Positions 6,415 to 53,398 of a DNA stretch of 64,000 bases are shown here, piece after piece (within the stretch, counting starts at the first letter, position 1; each line of letters opens with the position of its first letter). Both the position numbers and the translations under genes were made by a program. Origin of the DNA: Eimeria necatrix (Eukaryota; Apicomplexa; Conoidasida; Eucoccidiorida; Eimeriidae); NCBI RefSeq assembly GCF_000499385.1, contig NW_013651818.1:7501-71500 (forward strand), written 5' to 3'. The notes below the pieces were generated by a model. The model was not told where the DNA came from and did no database searches. It saw only the letters and a program-made list of their open reading frames with translations.

Positions 6415-8050
6415 CTGGGGGGAAAAGGCCTAATCGGCAGCCAGCAGCTGCCGCGGGGTGAACCTGCTGAGGATCTGAAAGGCGCTGCGGATGAGAAGCA
6501 AGAATTCAACGAGAAGCTGAAGTATGAGCTGCTCAAGTTTGGCTATTTGAATCAAAGAAAGTGGAAAAGAAGAAGGCGAAAAAAGCACTTCTGAAACCGA
6601 GAAGCTGCAGCGCGCAGCTCCTGCTTTCCCTTTGGAATTCGTGTTGTTCGGGCGCCGCGATCAGCCCGTTAAAAACGCCCAACACCGACTCAAATAGAGC
6701 TAATTGTGCTTTGGTGGGACTGCTGCAACAAATAAAGGAGTCAGGGAAAAGAAACTAATGAGGATGGAAGAAGAATCGACGCGACGGGGCTGTTACGGAA
6801 CAGACAGAGTCGAGCCGACGCGCTGCGGTGACACCTCGCCATGCTTGCTCGCAAGCGGAAAGGGAATTTAAGCCAATTAAAGCTCTCAAAGCAAAGAAAA
6901 TATTTACTTGTAAGAATCCTATTTAGCGCAGATCGGGGAGAAGCACCTGCAAGAAGCCGACTTCCTCATTCTCGGCTGCCGTGGCTAGCTGGCCAATGGC
7001 AGCTCCTCGCGAAGCTCCGCACGAAATACCTCTTCTTGTAGAGCCCATTAAGCTGAATAAAAGCCTCTTTTTAAAATTAAACTCTAATTTACCCTGTGCG
7101 AAGACGCAATAGTCCGCGGGCGTCACTCGACAGCCACCTAGAGCCGACTCGACTCGGCGCAGGCTTTGCAGCTCCGATCTTCCACTCAGAAACACTCCAT
7201 TCCCTCTGTCGCTTCGCCTTTCTTGTTTAATTCATTATTTATATATTAAAATAAATATTGAGAACCAGTTAACTTTCCAGCTCATGCATGTTGCCGCCGC
7301 CGATGGGAGCTGTGAGCTGTGCTGGCCCCTGACACTTGCGTGTTCCCGTACCAGTACTTTCCCAAGAGGGGCCCGTGTCTTTGTTTCACAGCTGATTGTA
7401 CAAGTCCAATTTGGTCTTTTAAAGCATCCTGAGAGGTAAGTATCTCAAAAACTACCCTTTTTTATCTCCATTAAGAGTTACACAGGTGTTCTTGTTTCTG
7501 AAATCCCTTTGCAAGTTGCTTGGGTCTCGGGAACACCCGCGCAATCAGAAAATCTAAAGCCACAGTTGTGCACATTTGCAGATAACAAAAGGAACAAAAA
7601 ATAATCCTAATAAGTCGAAAAGAGCAAAAAAAAACAGAAATGTGGCTTTCCTTTCAAGTATTCATCAACTGGAGTCGCAGAAACAAAAAAAGAAAGAAAA
7701 GTTCATCTTTATATCTCATTATTTGCAAAAGATCTGCTGCAAAATGGCCTACAGAAGCAGAATTGGCCAAGTTTGAGCCGTGGAAACTTCAGTGTACTTC
7801 ATGTTTCGGACTTGTGCAAATTCGCGTCTTGTGCATTTAAGAAGAATAAAATGGTAATTTCGAAATATAAATGCAGCAATTTGTTCACTGCTGCAGTCAT
7901 AAGCAGCTAAAGGACTGCGAGATTTTGCAAATAAAAAATAAAAGTTATTTTCCTAAGTAAGAAACTCCAGCAGGTCTTGTGGGCCGCTGCAGCCAAAAGA
8001 AGCAAAAGTGGTGAAGCAAATGCTTTGGAGTTTATTTGAATGGTTAGTTG
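6415..8050. other. Intergenic, mostly AT-rich, no gene seen
   Basis: The left part (to about 7200) has mixed composition with short open frames that show no family features. From about 7200 the sequence becomes AT-rich with scattered poly-A. It separates the minus-strand phosphatase region from the tandem-repeat block. I see no RNA gene or coding exon I can defend. Confidence 0.5.
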
Positions 8051-8212
8051 GTTGTCTTTAAACATTTCTTTTTAGTTTTAGTTTCTTAAACATTCAACTT
8101 TGTAGTTTGTTGTCTTTAAACATTTCTTTCCACTTTTAGTTTCTTAAACACTTAACTTGTTAGTTTGTTGTCTTTAAACATTTCTTTCCACTTTTAGTTT
8201 CTTAAACAGCAG
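8051..8212. repeat. 58-bp tandem repeat, about 2.8 copies
   Basis: Units begin with gttgtctttaaacatttctt at 8051, 8109 and 8167, giving a 58-bp period. Copies two and three are nearly identical over the core (ccacttttagtttcttaaac) and copy one is slightly diverged. No coding potential is evident. Confidence 0.85.
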
Positions 8213-8339
8213 TGAATGAGCCTTCGGACTCAGTCGAATTTCCGAGTTCAACTTCTTTCAACTTCTTCTGCAAGTCTTCTCCCCATTTAAACTCGCCACT
8301 CAGTTTCCCAGAGCCTACACTTTTTGCTAACAGAAAAAT

Positions 8340-8745
8340 ATCAAACAATTTAAAAAATTTAAACAATTTAAACACTTTAAACAATTCAAATACTTTGAAC
8401 AATTTAAACAATTTAAACACTTTAAACACTTTAAACACTTTAAACATAAATTTGTGAAATTTGGTAAATTTGTTAAATTTGTGAAATTTGTTAAATTTGA
8501 CTTTAAACCATTTAAACAATTTAAACACTTTAAACAATTTAAACACTTTAAACCATTTAAACAATTTAAACACTTTAAACAATTTAAACACTTTAAACAA
8601 TTTAAACACTTTAAACCATTTAAACGGTTTAAACACTTTAAACAATTTAAACAATTTAAACAATTTAAACACTTTAAGCACTTTAAACGATTTAAACACT
8701 TTAAACAATTTAAACAATTTAAACAATTAAAACAATTTAAATTTA
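8340..8745. repeat. 9-bp minisatellite based on AATTTAAAC/ACTTTAAAC
   Basis: About forty units of a 9-mer, mainly AATTTAAAC, ACTTTAAAC and CATTTAAAC, with a variant patch at 8454-8500 (AAATTTGTT/AAATTTGTG). Because the period is a multiple of three, every frame on both strands stays open and gives periodic peptides (FKH-FKQ, LNTLNN, KVFKLF). Each unit carries the self-complementary core TTTAAA. The long open frames here are best read as by-products of the repeat. Confidence 0.9.
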
Positions 8746-8924
8746 ATAGTGCTGCAAGTAAAGTCACTGCAAGCCGCAGTGCAGCCACAGAATAAGTGAA
8801 AGACTTTAACTTTATTCTTAAAGAGATGCACAAATGCCCAAAGTTATTTGACTTTGACTTTAAGGCTGCAGCTCTATGAGATAATAAATCAACTTGAATA
8901 TTAAAAGCTTTTGCAAAAGGCTGT

Positions 8925-9296
8925 GGGCGAATAAAAAGTGGCAAAAGAAAAGATAAAATGAAAACTATTAATTAAAAAGTGGCAAAAGAAAAGATAAAAT
9001 AAAAACTGTTAATTAAAAAGTGGCAAAAAAACCAAAATAAAAAAGCAATAATTGAAAAGAGGCAAAAGAAAAGACAAAATAAAAAACCATTAATTAAAAT
9101 GCGGCGGAAGAAAAGATAAAATAAAAAACTATTGATTAAAAAGTGGCAAAAGAAAACATAAAATAAAAAAGCAATAACTGAAAAGAGGCAAAAGAAAAGA
9201 GAAAATGAAAAACCATTAATTAAAATGCGGCGAAAGAAAAGATAAAATAAAAAACTATTAATTAAAAAGTGGCAAAAGAAAAGATAAAATAAAAAA
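8925..9296. repeat. A-rich tandem repeat of about 42 bp with a 127-bp higher-order unit
   Basis: About nine units with the core agtggcaaaagaaaagataa followed by an AT-rich linker. Between about 9051 and 9296 a three-unit block (variants with gaggc, gcggc and gtggc) occurs twice, with starts about 127 bp apart, so the array shows higher-order structure. It is non-coding as far as I can see. Confidence 0.85.
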
Positions 9297-11133
9297 CAAC
9301 TATTTGGAAGTGAAGATTGTGCAATTTGAATATTTAAAAGCGGCTAAAGAATGTCCTAAATGGCATATTACAAAACAAAACTCTTGCCATTAGCATCTTT
9401 GCTTCTCCACAAAGAATAAAGTTATTTGCATTTCCTGGAAATGAAAATTTAAAAGAAAAGTTGTTTGCATTTTCCGAAAATGAAAAGTTCAAATAATATA
9501 AATATAGATTGAAAGAGAAGCGCCCAACAAAAGGCGTCGCTGCTGCACCTTTTGGGTGTTTTTTGTTTTCTTTTTGGGCCCTTTAAAGATACAATTTTGA
9601 GTTTTATTTTAATTACTTTGAAGTGTTATTTGTTTTCTTTTTGGATCCTTTTGAAGGTGCAATTTTCATTTTAATTCCATTTTGTTTTATTTATTTTTGC
9701 TGCGAGTTGTCAAAACTAGTTGGGGGCCACCGCGGGGACTCTGCGAAAAAAATACTTCGCCAAAAGTTGGCCTTTAATGCAACAAATGAGGGACTTTAGT
9801 TTGGAGAAATATATTTAAAGAACAAAAGAACAACAGCAAAACGAGGGCACAGAGAGCGGCCAAAAGGGCCGCCAGTTGAAGTTCGAAAACGCGGAAATAA
9901 AAACAAATGAACGAAATATTCAATAGGAGTCCATGTGCACCATACTGCGTTCAGGTGTATGTACAGGGGTCCTTGAATTCGTTTTTTATTTTTTTTTCCC
10001 ATTTTTTTTTTCCCTTTTAATTCCTTTCATTGCAAAAGACTTTCCACTCTTCAAAACCCGCACTCTGCAGCTCCAGAGGCCCACTTCAGAGGGCCTCCGT
10101 CTCAGAGTTTAACTCGCAAAAGACTCTGGAGTTCAGTTCTTAAGACTCCGTTTTAAAAACTTCAATTTATTGCCAAGTCCCCCGTGGCCCAGGGCTGCAG
10201 AGCCCCTCGTGGGGGGCTTTATTAGCCAATTAAAGTATGTTTGGCCGCGTGGCTTTCTGCTGCAGCAGATTTGCCTGAGAGGCAGTGCTGCTGCAGCAAG
10301 CCCGCTGCTGCAGATTCGTCCAATTTGTGGTCTTTTGGGTTTAAATTTGGGTTTAAATTAATAAATAATTTAAATATTTTCTTTTTATTTGCAAATTGCT
10401 GCAGCTTTTGGCGCACTTGGGGGGCCCAGCCAGCCGTGGGGCCCCAGCACAAGACCCCAGCTGCTGCAGGGTGGTGGTGGTGGTAGTTTGTATGCGCGTT
10501 CGCTGGCTGGCTCGGCCTCGGCAGTTCCTCTGGAGTTAATAAATTGAAAACATGAATTGTTTAACTTCGAAAAAATAAGGAAATTAATCAATGCATCCAT
10601 TAACTGCGCTTTCCCACACACAACCACCCCGCCTAGCCAGGGGCTGTTGCTGTCTCAACTTTCCGCCGGGGCCGAAGGCCTTCTCTCTGCCGGCTATTTG
10701 CGGCGACCAAGACAAAAGTAGAATAATTAAAATGAATTAATTATTAATTGGGGATAAATAAAGGAGATAAGCCGCAGACGCAGCCCTCCGCAGGGCGAAG
10801 CCAACATGTGACACCTCAACACCCAGGTGAACATACACCTCAATTTTTTCCGCCGGCTTTCCGAAGTTTTTTCAAAAGTGAATCAAATAAATAAAAAACA
10901 AAACTTGGCGCTGCTGGAATGGCCTCAAAGGGACTCCGGGGGGGGCCATTACACGCGGCTGTGAGGCCAGAAGCTTGGGAACTAACTGGCAAACGGCAGC
11001 GGGAAACCAGCTATAGACTTCCAGATCTGCTTCTGTTTATTTAATTATTCTTTTTGTTTTATTTTGCTGCTTCTGCATTTGACTTTTTTCCGCTGCATGC
11101 ACTCATTTGCTTCCTCCTGGCTCCCTCTTCTCG
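9297..11133. other. Intergenic AT-rich region, no gene seen
   Basis: AT-rich with poly-T and poly-A stretches, a GC-richer island near 10,170-10,500 with short CTGCTG runs, and two near-palindromes of the recurring type (about 9952-9968 and 10825-10840). Open frames are short and featureless. Confidence 0.5.
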
Positions 11134-48634: not shown

Positions 48635-51600
48635 ATGGCCGCGCAGGAAGCCGGCTTCGGTCGGATTTCGGACGACCAAATAGCAGCAGTGATTCGGTAT
48701 TCTGACGAATGGGCATTTATCGAGTACATGCTCCAAATAAGCACACGAACGTCTCGTGTGAAGCTTCTCCAGGCCTGGCACCTGTCTCCGCCGCAGGTGG
48801 TGAACCAGTTTGAGAGACGTACAGCCGTGAGGTCAACATCGTCAGACTAAACTCCTTAGTTTGCGCCAAATAAGCGTGCAAATGGCCATGAATATGACTA
48901 AAAATTGCCAGTCTTCATGCATCGAGAAACATGTGAAGAAGCGCCCTCCCTTTGGTCTTTGTGCAGCGACGTCTGGTGGTTTATTCATTCGTGGAAGCTT
49001 CACTGCTTGACGAGGAGAACACTATTCAAAATGTCACTAGACGCGGCTTCAAAATTGACTCTCGGGGTATGAAATTTGTGCTCGGGAATTTCAGGTGTGT
49101 GGTGTTAGTCTTAACACTGCACAACTCCAGAACCAGAGCATCAAAGTTGTCGCCGTCTGTTGCCTCCTCTTGGCGGATGTGAGGCCACTGAAGCACAGCG
49201 AAGGCGACCATACGCTTGTGCATATTTGTTAAGCCTGCAGGGAATTCCTCTTCTTCGCGGCGCATCAGCTCAAGCTATAGATCCATTCACACTCCCATCA
49301 TGTGGGCAGTAGCTCTATAAGGGGCTACTATTCCACATATTGCATCCTCCACCAGCAGGCAGCAAGCACAGCTGCTTCTGTATCCTGGTCCTCGACAAAA
49401 GCTTCCATATGTTCTTTGCCCTGTGGGGTCCTTCTGTTCTCAATATCAGTGATTCTCTGCCCTTTCCAGATGTGTACAAGTGTTTTAATCTCCTTTTGAG
49501 CACTGTGCTGCGCAGCTGAGTTGACGACCAGTGCGAAGGAGCAACAAAAACATGAACGCTCGGCTTTTATTGAGGCGGCGAAATCCCAACTTCTCAGTGG
49601 AGAACGACGCGTTTATGAGTTTTTTCTGTGCAAAGTTGGTGAGAAACCATCGTAACGAATTCTGCAGCGGCGCAGCTCGCAGCTGCTTCCTTTAAAGGGG
49701 CTGCAGGCTACTTGTGAGCCGTTGCATTAATTCGATAGCGAAAGTATCCCATGTAGGCTACTTGCGTCGCCAGCGAAGCAAACTGTATTGGGGATCGCTG
49801 TACCGGTGCTCCAAAAGTTCTGTCATGAAAGACTCGATTTTGCTGGGCCTTCAGGAGTAGGTCACTCAGTAGTCATGAAGGATGAAAGGGAAGCGTCAGG
49901 AGAACGCACCACGCTTCCTCAGGAGTACGATAGTGCATATCTTGAAGATGGAAACACAGCCCCTACAGAGACACTCACTGTCTTCTTTGACAATCCTGAC
50001 CAGTACTTGACTAAAGGCTCGTCTAGTATCAGGAGAGGGGAAGCCATTCAGCAGATCAAGAAGGGGCTCTCCATGGCTACAGCAGGAGTGTTGCCTCAAC
50101 ACACAATGCGCCAGGAATATGTTGTCTACGATTCATCACAGGTTAGATCATTGCAAGACCAGCAATGGATACGCAGCCTGGTACTTCGACTTTCGCCCAG
50201 ACAAGTTTGTTGGTTTCTTATGTGGCAAAAATGTCATGCCGCCGTTTGCTGAAGAACTTCAAAATGTGTCATGCAAATTGCACCTTGCGGCACCTTAGGT
50301 ATTGCCAGTTTACTTGGTGCTCTTTGAAGTAGATTCTACTGAACCTGAGCTATTTGCCGTACCCCTATGCGAAGCTTGCCAGGACTTCCCTGCTTCAATA
50401 TGGTGCCCAGCGGACACAGCCAAGTACGAGTGCACAAATTAGGAAAGTTGATAAGATACATGTAGAAATTCGAAAGGCATAGCAAATAGTGTTTTCCCAT
50501 TACAGTCTGTTTGTGCTGCGCTCGTGCCCTCAGGCTGTGCGAGGCTTGTGACGAACGCTTACACTCCCACAACAAGCTTGTTTCAAGGCACATTAGAGTT
50601 CCTCTAAATGAGGTTAGAAGCTCACAGTTTCCGCAGATCGATGCCCTAAGAGCTAGATTGTGTTTTGAAGGGAAGCATTTAGTGCTGCTGCTTTCCTGAT
50701 TTCGTGAGCGCTCAGATGCCCAAACCAAGTGGACGGTGCAAGCAGCATACAGAAGAAGCCTACGAGTCATTCTGTACAATGTGTCATGCTCCTGTCTGCC
50801 GACTGTGTCGACCCAACCACATCCACGCGGACGTAACGGGTGGCTCATCCGCCAACAATTTCGAAGGTGACTTGGGCTTGACAGGACGCCGGTAGGGCTA
50901 ATGAATGAGACTTCCACTATGGTAGCATGGACCTCCATTGTGGCGGCTGGTCTACAGACTTGAAGATGCCTGCACGCGTGCACGCTTAATGCACGCAGGA
51001 ACGCCCACATTAATATCGCTGTCACTGGCGTACTCTGGTGTTTTAGAGAGAGCTCGCCAACCCCACCTCATTTTAAATAAGCGCAAGACAGACCTGCAAG
51101 AAAGGCTCGAAAGGCTTCAGATTCTGATCGAGTAGGTCTTCCCAGGGTTTTGGGTGGCTGCTCTTGCTTCTTTTGACCTGCGACTGCAAAAGCCGTTGTC
51201 GCTGTCTTTGCTCTTTTCTTCAGCGGCGCTCGCTGTAACTATCGATCCGTCGAGCAGAGGTGTTACTCCATCCTGGGAGAATCAATGAATCAGCTCAAGG
51301 TGAGCACCCAGAGCTCTCTAACAATCCACCGAAACTATCTGAAAGCCCCGCAGCTAGCTAGATACATCGTGACTTCAATTGTGACTACGTTCCGTGAAAG
51401 CAGCTACTTTGCTCTATGCCTCCGCACCAAAAAAAACTATGAATTTCTTAGCTATGTTGTGAGCCGCATATCCCCCCAGTCGTGCACGGAAGATAAAATG
51501 GGTGCAGTTCTGTCCCAGCAATTCGAGCTGCAAAGACGGATGGATATGATCGAGTGGAGCGAGCAACTTCTGCGGCTTCTGCGTTCCGTACTCCCCCCAG

Positions 51601-52287
51601 CCGACTTCTTGGCTGCATGGTGATTCGTGATTGCAACCTGAACCCTGTGGCGACCCACTTGCCAAACTGCATCGAGAGGCTCATAAGCTTAATTTGGCTT
51701 GCAGAGACACATTTCAGTAGTGTGTTTTCTTCCATTGTGGAATAATGTGCAGGCTTCGGCAATGCCGCCTAAGAGACGAAGTAGAATCGCTCAGCGGCGA
51801 CTGGTCAGACCTCTCCCAGATGGTTTTGGTGAGCTTGATACAAGATTACAACGAACTAGCTGGGATAATTAAGACCTCAGGATCACGTCTACAGTAAAGA
51901 AATACTACACCAGGTGAATCTCTTTGGTGGTATTTGTGCACCGAATATTCAGCCAAACATGCGTCTGGACGGTACGGTTGAATTTCTTACGGACTCGGCA
52001 CTGCGACACAGAGAATTGCATCGGATACAAGGTAAAAGAGAATGAAATATATCACATTCCCCCGCTCGACCGGCTCGACCGGCTCAGGGCACCGGTCAAG
52101 TTTCCCCGAGGTCAGTGATGGAGCGAAGTCATTAGCCAGCAAGCCAGCAAGGAAGTTCCGTTCTCTCTACGAGGTCTACCGTTTGGGCATAAAGGGTCTG
52201 TTGTTCTTGCCTTGGCATATGCTGCTGTCTCCCAGTCACAGGCTCTGCGTAGAAGCAAGTGCCGTTTCCGCAATACACACTTTGTAG
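48635..52287 (+). CDS. PARP-like ADP-ribosyltransferase fold fused to tandem B-box zinc fingers and coiled coil
   Basis: Model: 48635-48826, 48967-49094, 49532-49638, 49855-50141, 50299-50423, 50534-50612, 50716-50866, 51047-51131, 51224-51299, 51480-51619, 51753-51828, 51914-52031 and 52136-52287, 1,716 nt (571 aa) with every phase agreeing. Residues 1-240 resemble a PARP catalytic domain: RRLVVYSF where PARPs have LLWHGT, then RRGFKIDSRGMKF, VYEFFLCKV, and QEYVVYDSSQVLPVYLVLFE, which keeps the Glu of the H-Y-E triad. The His and Tyr positions look substituted, so activity is doubtful. Next is a B-box 1 (about 262-295) with C-x2-C-x8-C-x7-C-x2-C-x4-H-x8-H and a B-box 2 (about 313-345: CKQH, FCTMC, CRLC, HIH). 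Helical coiled-coil segments follow (KTDLQERLERLQILIE; QQFELQRRMDMIEWSEQLLR). Exon 3's start and exon 7's end have alternatives. PARP identity is inference from motif order. Confidence 0.7.
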
Positions 52288-53398
52288 CCACTTAAGTGCC
52301 TTGCATGCAGTTCCTTCAGTTGCAATGGGGCCCTTACATACGACGCACAACATTACACAGCACTACAAACATCTAAGCTGCGAATGCAGCTATCCAGAGT
52401 ACGCGTACAAATCCCTTGAAGTGAAGCACACCGCATGATCACTTTACGCGCACTTCCAATGTACATGGCGGAACTCCATTCGCCGTGCAATCCTTTTACC
52501 GCGCGCAGCGTGCATAGCAGTAGCATGCTTTAAACGCAGGTATACATGCAACCCATTTGGAAATTTAGCCGTTTGTCCGCCGCAGTATTGCTGGTTTTGC
52601 CTTGGTCCGCACGCAGCGTGCATAGCAGTAGCATGCTTTAAACGCAGGTATACATGCAACCCATTTGGAAATTTAGCCGTTTGTCCGCCGCAGTATTGCT
52701 GGTTTTGCCTTGGTCTTGCACTATTTGGTTTGCGACGGCATTGGTAGTGACGATTAACTCTTTTAAAGACCATCCTTCCTTCAAAACGCTTTGATCCGTC
52801 ATCGTCTACACTCGGCTAGCATACATCAGATCGATAGCGCTGTTCGATTTAATGATTTCCTGCACTACAACACGACGCCTTATGGCACGATTGAGCGAAA
52901 CATCAGCTCTGTATTGAACCCAATTCGGGTGCTAGTAAGATCCCATAGCTCCGTCGCTCCCCTGCGATACCTTGAATACGGGAGAGGCATCTTCTATCTT
53001 TGCGCCTATCTGCTGGCCTTACTCATTCCAAAACAAAACAATAAGAATTCAGCCTTGTGCACACAATGAGGCCGCGCTTGGTGGCCTTTGATCTCTGTCG
53101 CACTCAGCTCGTACGGCCTGCTTGCACTTGAATTCCATGTGGCACGGAATCAACGAGTGCGTTCAACGGCCTCCTGACGCCCCCTAGCTGCGGAAACAAA
53201 CACAGGAGGATCCATCAATTCTCGAGTCTAGTGAATAGAATTTCCTGTCTTTGTGTGGGCTGAAGGTTGCTGTGTCTTGCAGACTATTAACGCGACAGCA
53301 ACCTCGAGAATATGGCCCCGCCACATCCACTTCCCCCTAAGTAGACTGAATTCGGCTCAGTCACGTTATGAAGGGCCTTGCCTCTACTACAAAGATGC
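52288..53398. other. Convergent 3' flanks with a 108-bp tandem duplication
   Basis: Between the B-box gene (+) and the ATEL1 gene (-). Its main feature is the duplication at 52504-52719. A minus-strand frame (52,444-52,773) runs through both copies because 108 is divisible by three; I do not regard it as a gene. The rest shows nothing distinctive. Confidence 0.5.
52504..52719. repeat. 108-bp direct tandem duplication, two near-identical copies
   Basis: Copies start with the word cagcgtgcatagcagtagca at 52506 and 52614, so the period is 108 bp. Identity is essentially complete over the unit, pointing to a recent duplication. Confidence 0.9.

Follow-up and report, generated by a model that had tools for sequence, protein, structure and literature searches.

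What kind of protein joins an ADP-ribosyltransferase (ART)-like fold to two B-box zinc fingers and a coiled coil, and what would such a protein do in an apicomplexan parasite? This question is raised by a gene located at 48635..52045 (+ strand) in the window analyzed here, i.e. the whole stretch of 64,000 nucleotides taken from contig NW_013651818.1 (positions 7,501 to 71,500) of Eimeria necatrix. The original prediction gave this single gene an ART fold followed by two B-boxes and a coiled coil, and considered that no characterised apicomplexan protein had such an arrangement. The first statement agrees with our results (Foldseek and VIA searches with the model of a homologue, ligand spacing of the B-boxes and helices of the model), but the second has to be withdrawn, the PCR4 protein of Toxoplasma being a full-length orthologue with a known structure (9YA0) and a reported essential role. 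Judged by sequence comparison, the window gene is a PCR4 orthologue, and this Eimeria genome has a second PCR4 copy paralogous to it. In a phmmer search of PDB sequences, its best match was PCR4 (TGME49_201220, 9YA0 chain AB; E = 1.8e-203, residues 2-555), followed by PCR5 (TGME49_242320; E = 6.1e-35) and by plant CONSTANS B-boxes (best E = 6.7e-16), the full-length kinship being thus stronger to PCR4 than to PCR5. Furthermore, the domain order (ART-like, B-box 1, B-box 2, helix, and no C-terminal GTPase-activating domain) is that of PCR4. Other Apicomplexa have this architecture too, and there it also corresponds to PCR4. The relatives obtained from protein searches belong to Eimeria, Cyclospora, Toxoplasma, Besnoitia, Cystoisospora, Cryptosporidium, Plasmodium, Babesia, Theileria and Selendium or come from transcriptome or metagenome sources. 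Three distant members from these last sources (P0019, P0022 and P0023) lack the long loop that precedes the LLCKV strand, and the family may therefore reach past Apicomplexa. One of the protein searches was directed at longer PCR5-like proteins; among 70 candidates scored, it listed 22 proteins of 375-668 aa, all read as PCR4-type.

The preconoidal ring location of PCR4 is known from Toxoplasma (PMC12819142, PMC12663574). There, PCR4 and its homologue PCR5, which carries a C-terminal GTPase-activating domain, were shown by others to form the core of the ring as a heterodimer and are described as deeply embedded structural subunits, no ligand being mentioned in the passages covered (PMC12819142). 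Deletion of Pcr4 or Pcr5 leaves the rings absent, and gliding is not started (PMC12663574). TGME49_201220 also has a Plasmodium orthologue (PMC11005440). The locus matters since PCR4 is reported to be essential for the ring where gliding and invasion start and has relatives from Eimeria to Plasmodium. We infer by analogy that the Eimeria copies would do the same job as Toxoplasma PCR4, and the reading that suits the window protein best is that of a ring scaffold, and not of a TRIM-like ligase or a working PARP. With a probability of about 0.86, it would belong to the structural subunits of the apical preconoidal ring, with a degenerate PARP/ART fold as interaction module and B-boxes and helix used for pairing. 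In this proposal, the N-terminal half would be a catalytically degenerate fold acting as a folded interaction or packing module, i.e. as scaffold only, while the two zinc-binding B-boxes and the long helical part would provide the dimer contacts with a homologous partner, either PCR5 or possibly the other PCR4 copy. Repeated heterodimers would then build the ring core, the actin nucleator FRM1 lying on the outer rim of this core.

The window gene comprises 13 exons (+ strand: 48635-48826, 48967-49094, 49234-49301, 49516-49638, 49855-50141, 50299-50423 and 50534-50612 for exons 1 to 7; 50716-50866, 50999-51131, 51224-51299, 51480-51619, 51753-51828 and 51953-52045 for exons 8 to 13), whose in-frame splicing gives 1671 nt, i.e. 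556 aa and a TGA stop. All 12 introns have GT/AG borders, which were chosen as those common to this gene and to a second copy, so that the predicted structure rests on comparison. This second copy was identified by a B-box profile search of the whole assembly (44.0 Mb, 1148 contigs), in which the window match was nearly equalled by one on contig C284, a third and weaker match lying on C248. The C284 copy (C284:51069-54544, locus L007:3070-6545) also has 13 exons and encodes 556 aa; the lengths and end phases of all 13 exons are identical in the two copies and 421 of the 556 residues are the same. These comparisons support the earlier proposal of a single 13-exon gene, whereas its extension to 52287 is rejected because the 93-nt last exon, stop included, has its counterpart in a 93-nt last exon of the paralogue: the coding part stops at 52045. 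A chimera of two transcripts (exons 1-5 and 6-13) is likewise rejected, because the paralogue has identical exon lengths. An attempt to read exon 3 as prolonging the YFA motif (REFLFF) was rejected, this frame hitting a stop inside the exon; in the frame retained (SLQGIPLLRG), the differences between copies are mostly at third positions, as they are over the whole gene (82/65/260 differences at codon positions one, two and three, 557 codons). The motifs RRGFKIDSRGMKF and QEYVVYDSSQVLPVYLVLFE, quoted in the original prediction, are present in the spliced protein.

The ART-like region (PARP fold) covers residues ~1-281 (48635..50343, +; exons 1-5 and the start of exon 6). Foldseek and VIA match the AlphaFold2 (AF2) model of the homologue P0001, which is 75% identical to the window protein, to PARPs; the structural comparison with PARPs that had been suggested therefore succeeds, on the model of a close homologue. 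In addition, the Pfam PARP profile (PF00644) is found at E ≤ 1 in 11 of 14 ART rows of the family (best 1.1e-4). This PARP kinship of PCR4 is possibly new: PCR4 or the preconoidal ring was not joined with PARP, ADP-ribosyltransferase or B-box in the literature text searched, which did not include Extended Data Fig. 8 of PMC12819142; "PARP", "B-box", "ADP-ribos" and "zinc finger" do not occur in the main text of that paper, nor "PARP" and "B-box" in PMC12663574, and an ART nature of PCR4 is not brought up in any of the titles or opening lines of abstracts listed by broader literature searches. The domain assignments of this Extended Data figure were made with Foldseek (PMC12819142), and it may already depict the kinship.

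The catalytic Glu had been described as kept and the His (HGT) and Tyr positions as substituted, and this holds for the window protein. Conservation was assessed on 34 aligned rows, namely both spliced proteins and 32 fetched ones (a 33rd, from a plant, was dropped); several rows are faulty public gene models. The HG[ST] motif of PARPs holds nicotinamide; the place of its His is occupied by Y70-S71 (codons 48982..48987, +), according to column content and to a weak hhalign alignment with PARP exons of the same genome. His falls on Y70 by eye and on S71 by hhalign (weak; Prob 53, 52 columns), and the window protein has no His at either position. Among the 29 filled rows, column 70 contains Y (n = 15), E (n = 7), D (n = 4), K, S and H (n = 1 each, H being that of P0015), and column 71 contains S (n = 21), A (n = 7) and C (n = 1) and never His. 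At the place of the Tyr of GxYFA, put by eye on F106 of GNFSL (codon 49090..49092, +), F (n = 17), L (n = 6), I (n = 4) and V (n = 2) were found and Tyr in none of 29 filled rows. The equivalent of the PARP1 catalytic Glu is E258 of QEYVVYD (codon 50115..50117, +), aligned by HMMER with NEYIVYD of PARP1; this column has E in 22 of 32 filled rows, and D (n = 6, including Toxoplasma PCR4), N (n = 3) or V (n = 1) in the 10 others. The replacement of His and Tyr points to a pseudo-enzyme and, since Glu also varies, no residue of the His-Tyr-Glu (H-Y-E) triad is held family-wide. We thus read PCR4 as a putative pseudo-ART. Canonical PARP1/2-like exons with WHGS, GIYFA and NEYIVY are present elsewhere in the same genome (C200:40811-41703, - strand; loci L004-L006 and L008); therefore, a gene other than that of the ring protein encodes the enzyme. 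Human PARP13 is an inactive PARP, to which the ring protein can be likened: a degenerate PARP would give the ring core a testable origin, the fold of an NAD+ enzyme having turned into a building block.

Several observations weigh against a scaffold built on a degenerate PARP. The Pfam PARP score is below the gathering cut-off (26.7 bits) in both copies (14.8 bits for the window copy and 17.6 for the other), and the profile match to PARP4 consists of three stretches, each insignificant alone. The fold model is that of P0001 rather than of the window protein, with a mean predicted local distance difference test score (pLDDT) of 65.2 and a predicted template modelling score (pTM) of 0.44, and it is poor in loops 111-160 and 201-250 and in B-box 1. 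Its whole-model superposition on 9ya0 PCR4 is bad (root-mean-square deviation 25-30), and it therefore does not reproduce the domain arrangement. The PCR5 partner was not found in the assembly with fragments of Toxoplasma PCR5, one of which matched the two PCR4 copies only and the other nothing, in searches run without a positive control. Ligand binding without catalysis is also compatible with an ART-like domain. Furthermore, Toxoplasma parasites devoid of Pcr4 still make nascent rings, which have disappeared once the parasites are mature (PMC12663574), and "core" may therefore mean maintenance more than first assembly.

Among the other explanations, the one that survives best, unlikely as it is, proposes that the ART-like domain can still bind a nucleotide, be it NAD+, ADP-ribose or another, and would act in the ring without catalysis, as a sensor or a ligand-gated joint. 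The fold has been retained, conservation within the domain is among the highest near LLCKVGVG and EYVVYDSSQVLP, and position 71 is S, A or C in 29 of 29 filled rows. Conversely, the HG[ST] motif with its nicotinamide-holding role is gone, Tyr is never present, and the passages covered of PMC12819142 depict PCR4 and PCR5 as deeply embedded structural subunits and mention no ligand.

An active mono-ADP-ribosyltransferase with the altered chemistry that the original prediction allowed is about half as probable as this sensor or joint, i.e. very improbable. It would draw on E258 and on the predominance of Glu in its column. Some human mono-ARTs work without a full H-Y-E triad. Nevertheless, a PCR4 enzyme would have to act with His and Tyr both lost, with D, N or V instead of Glu in almost a third of the rows, D in Toxoplasma PCR4 included, and with no triad residue common to the family.

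The existence of two copies raises another question, namely whether the window copy could be a decaying or expendable duplicate and the C284 copy the working PCR4. The introns of the two copies have diverged: the 12 blastn matches between the window and L007 sit on 12 of the 13 exons and overrun them by at most 7 bases, and intron length differs at 11 of 12 positions. The NG86 method gives dN = 0.136 and dS = 1.43, i.e. a dN/dS of about 0.1. As far as sequences tell, the shared gene structure and this substitution pattern are not the product of chance or of a chimera. No third copy was found by a six-frame search, in which all 26 matches at E ≤ 0.1 among the best candidates scored lie on the contigs of these two copies (C292 and C284). 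A blastn comparison (E ≤ 1e-8) of the window with 29 kb around the C284 copy revealed no segmental duplication, none of its nine listed matches falling outside the PCR4 gene. Identity reaches 97% between the window protein and E. tenella P0006 (354 columns) and 98.8% between the paralogue and E. tenella P0005 (481 residues), values that place this genome very near E. tenella, as would fit E. necatrix. P0005 and P0006 are both listed with a longest contig of 299,945 bases, a hint that one contig may carry the two. A tree was built from 16 of 20 prepared rows, without other fetched rows; its deep root is weak (47/42). In it, the window copy pairs with P0006 (100/100) and the paralogue with P0005 (100/100), the latter pair being joined by E. 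acervulina and E. brunetti (89/88); all of them are included in a six-row clade (100/99). Given the position of E. acervulina and E. brunetti on the paralogue side, the duplication is probably older than the split between E. tenella and E. brunetti, with moderate support. Decay of the window copy, for which one could invoke the mere presence of two copies and the annotation of P0006 at only 354 aa, is hence scarcely credible given 13 open exons out of 13, no frameshift, intact splice sites, a low dN/dS at such a dS and the high identity to P0006, whose short model looks like an annotation error.

Both PCR4 copies of E. tenella are represented by public models that look faulty (truncated or frame-shifted compared to the shared 13-exon structure), and our analysis flags them as such: P0006 is without exon 3 and does not extend past exon 8, and P0005 diverges from the family past about residue 481. 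This old duplication in E. tenella-type Eimeria is possibly new; no mention of it was met in the literature passages covered, and no search was aimed at such a duplication. The lineage keeps two old PCR4 copies, and its ring composition may therefore differ from that of Toxoplasma. A far-reaching scenario, marginally more doubtful than the nucleotide-binding joint discussed above, would combine both themes: a former-PARP family (PCR4 and PCR5) would build the ring core, its ART cleft would bind a nucleotide and couple the NAD+/ADP-ribose state to ring assembly or conoid extrusion, and tenella-type Eimeria would use two PCR4 isoforms to make rings specific to a stage or a position, the isoforms having split before the E. 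tenella/E. brunetti divergence.

In the proposed scaffold, the back half of the protein would serve for pairing. B-box 1 (residues 290-327; 50368..50591, +; exons 6-7) is CONSTANS-like, with the spacing C-x2-C-x8-C-x2-D-x4-C-x2-C-x4-H-x8-H in both copies and, if C is allowed for D, in 21 of 24 proteins (plant protein included); its best PDB match outside PCR4 and PCR5 is CONSTANS-LIKE 2 (6.7e-16). B-box 2 (residues 342-371; 50737..50826, +; exon 8) is of the C-x2-H type, with the spacing C-x2-H-x8-C-x2-C-x4-C-x2-C-x3-H-x-H in both copies and a looser spacing in 18 of the 24 proteins; in both counts, the misses include truncated gene models. Pfam zf-B_box scores 42.7 bits over two stretches of the window protein, and PF00643 29.1 bits at exon 8. 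The ligand spacing is complete in both B-boxes, as had been proposed. A long helix or coiled coil follows (51067..51792, +; exons 9-12), helices being predicted at residues 408-488 and 494-514 in the AF2 model of P0001, with ten-residue pLDDT means of 74-91 across 411-510. The original prediction saw there the back half of a TRIM-like protein with an ART domain in place of the RING, which describes the domain order correctly but not the kinship, B-box 1 being nearest to CONSTANS among solved structures outside PCR4 and PCR5 and the architecture being that of PCR4 elsewhere. A TRIM-like ubiquitin ligase or adaptor, the least probable of all explanations despite the B-box, B-box, coiled coil order and weak matches to the B-boxes of TRIM63 and TIF1-beta, is rejected because no RING was found among the Pfam matches listed to E 10 (residues 1-283 being ART-like) and because the best full-length relative is the orthologous ring scaffold PCR4.

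Elsewhere in the assembly, the lone B-box match C248:4951-5043 (- strand, 25.8 bits) lies beside long same-frame alanine runs; it was discarded as a PCR4 or PCR5 relative, since it resembles neither and is a single match in the ~690 bases examined. Searches of NCBIfam and, for the window, of Rfam gave no match. Just downstream of the PCR4-like gene, at 52499-52715, a 108-bp unit is present in two tandem copies (99% matches). CAG/CTG arrays and other tandem repeats abound in positions 1-30000 of the window (39 of 41 Tandem Repeats Finder rows at score ≥ 100, overlapping rows counted), positions 30000-64000 are almost devoid of them, and GC drops to 29% at 8001-10000.

Compared to known systems, the window protein is closest to Toxoplasma PCR4 (TGME49_201220), with which it shares 54% identity over the full length, the domain order and the loss of His and Tyr. 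They differ by the size of the Toxoplasma protein (603 aa), its longer loop, its C-terminal tail and its D at the Glu position, and by copy number (two in Eimeria, no second Toxoplasma PCR4 among the matches listed). PCR5 (TGME49_242320) has a homologous N-terminal region, B-boxes and helix, but its extra C-terminal GTPase-activating domain has neither room nor a Pfam match in the window protein. The PARP/ARTD catalytic domain (PF00644) shares the ART fold, EYVVYDSSQV aligning with NEYIVYDIAQV of PARP1, whereas the window protein is below the Pfam cut-off, lacks His and Tyr and has a long loop ahead of the LLCKV strand. Plant CONSTANS-like proteins resemble it by the ligand spacing and sequence of B-box 1 but have different neighbouring domains, no CCT domain being among its Pfam matches listed. 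Finally, TRIM/RBCC proteins have in common with it two B-boxes followed by a coiled coil, whereas it begins with an ART-like domain and its matches to these proteins are limited to the B-boxes, no RING being listed among its Pfam matches.
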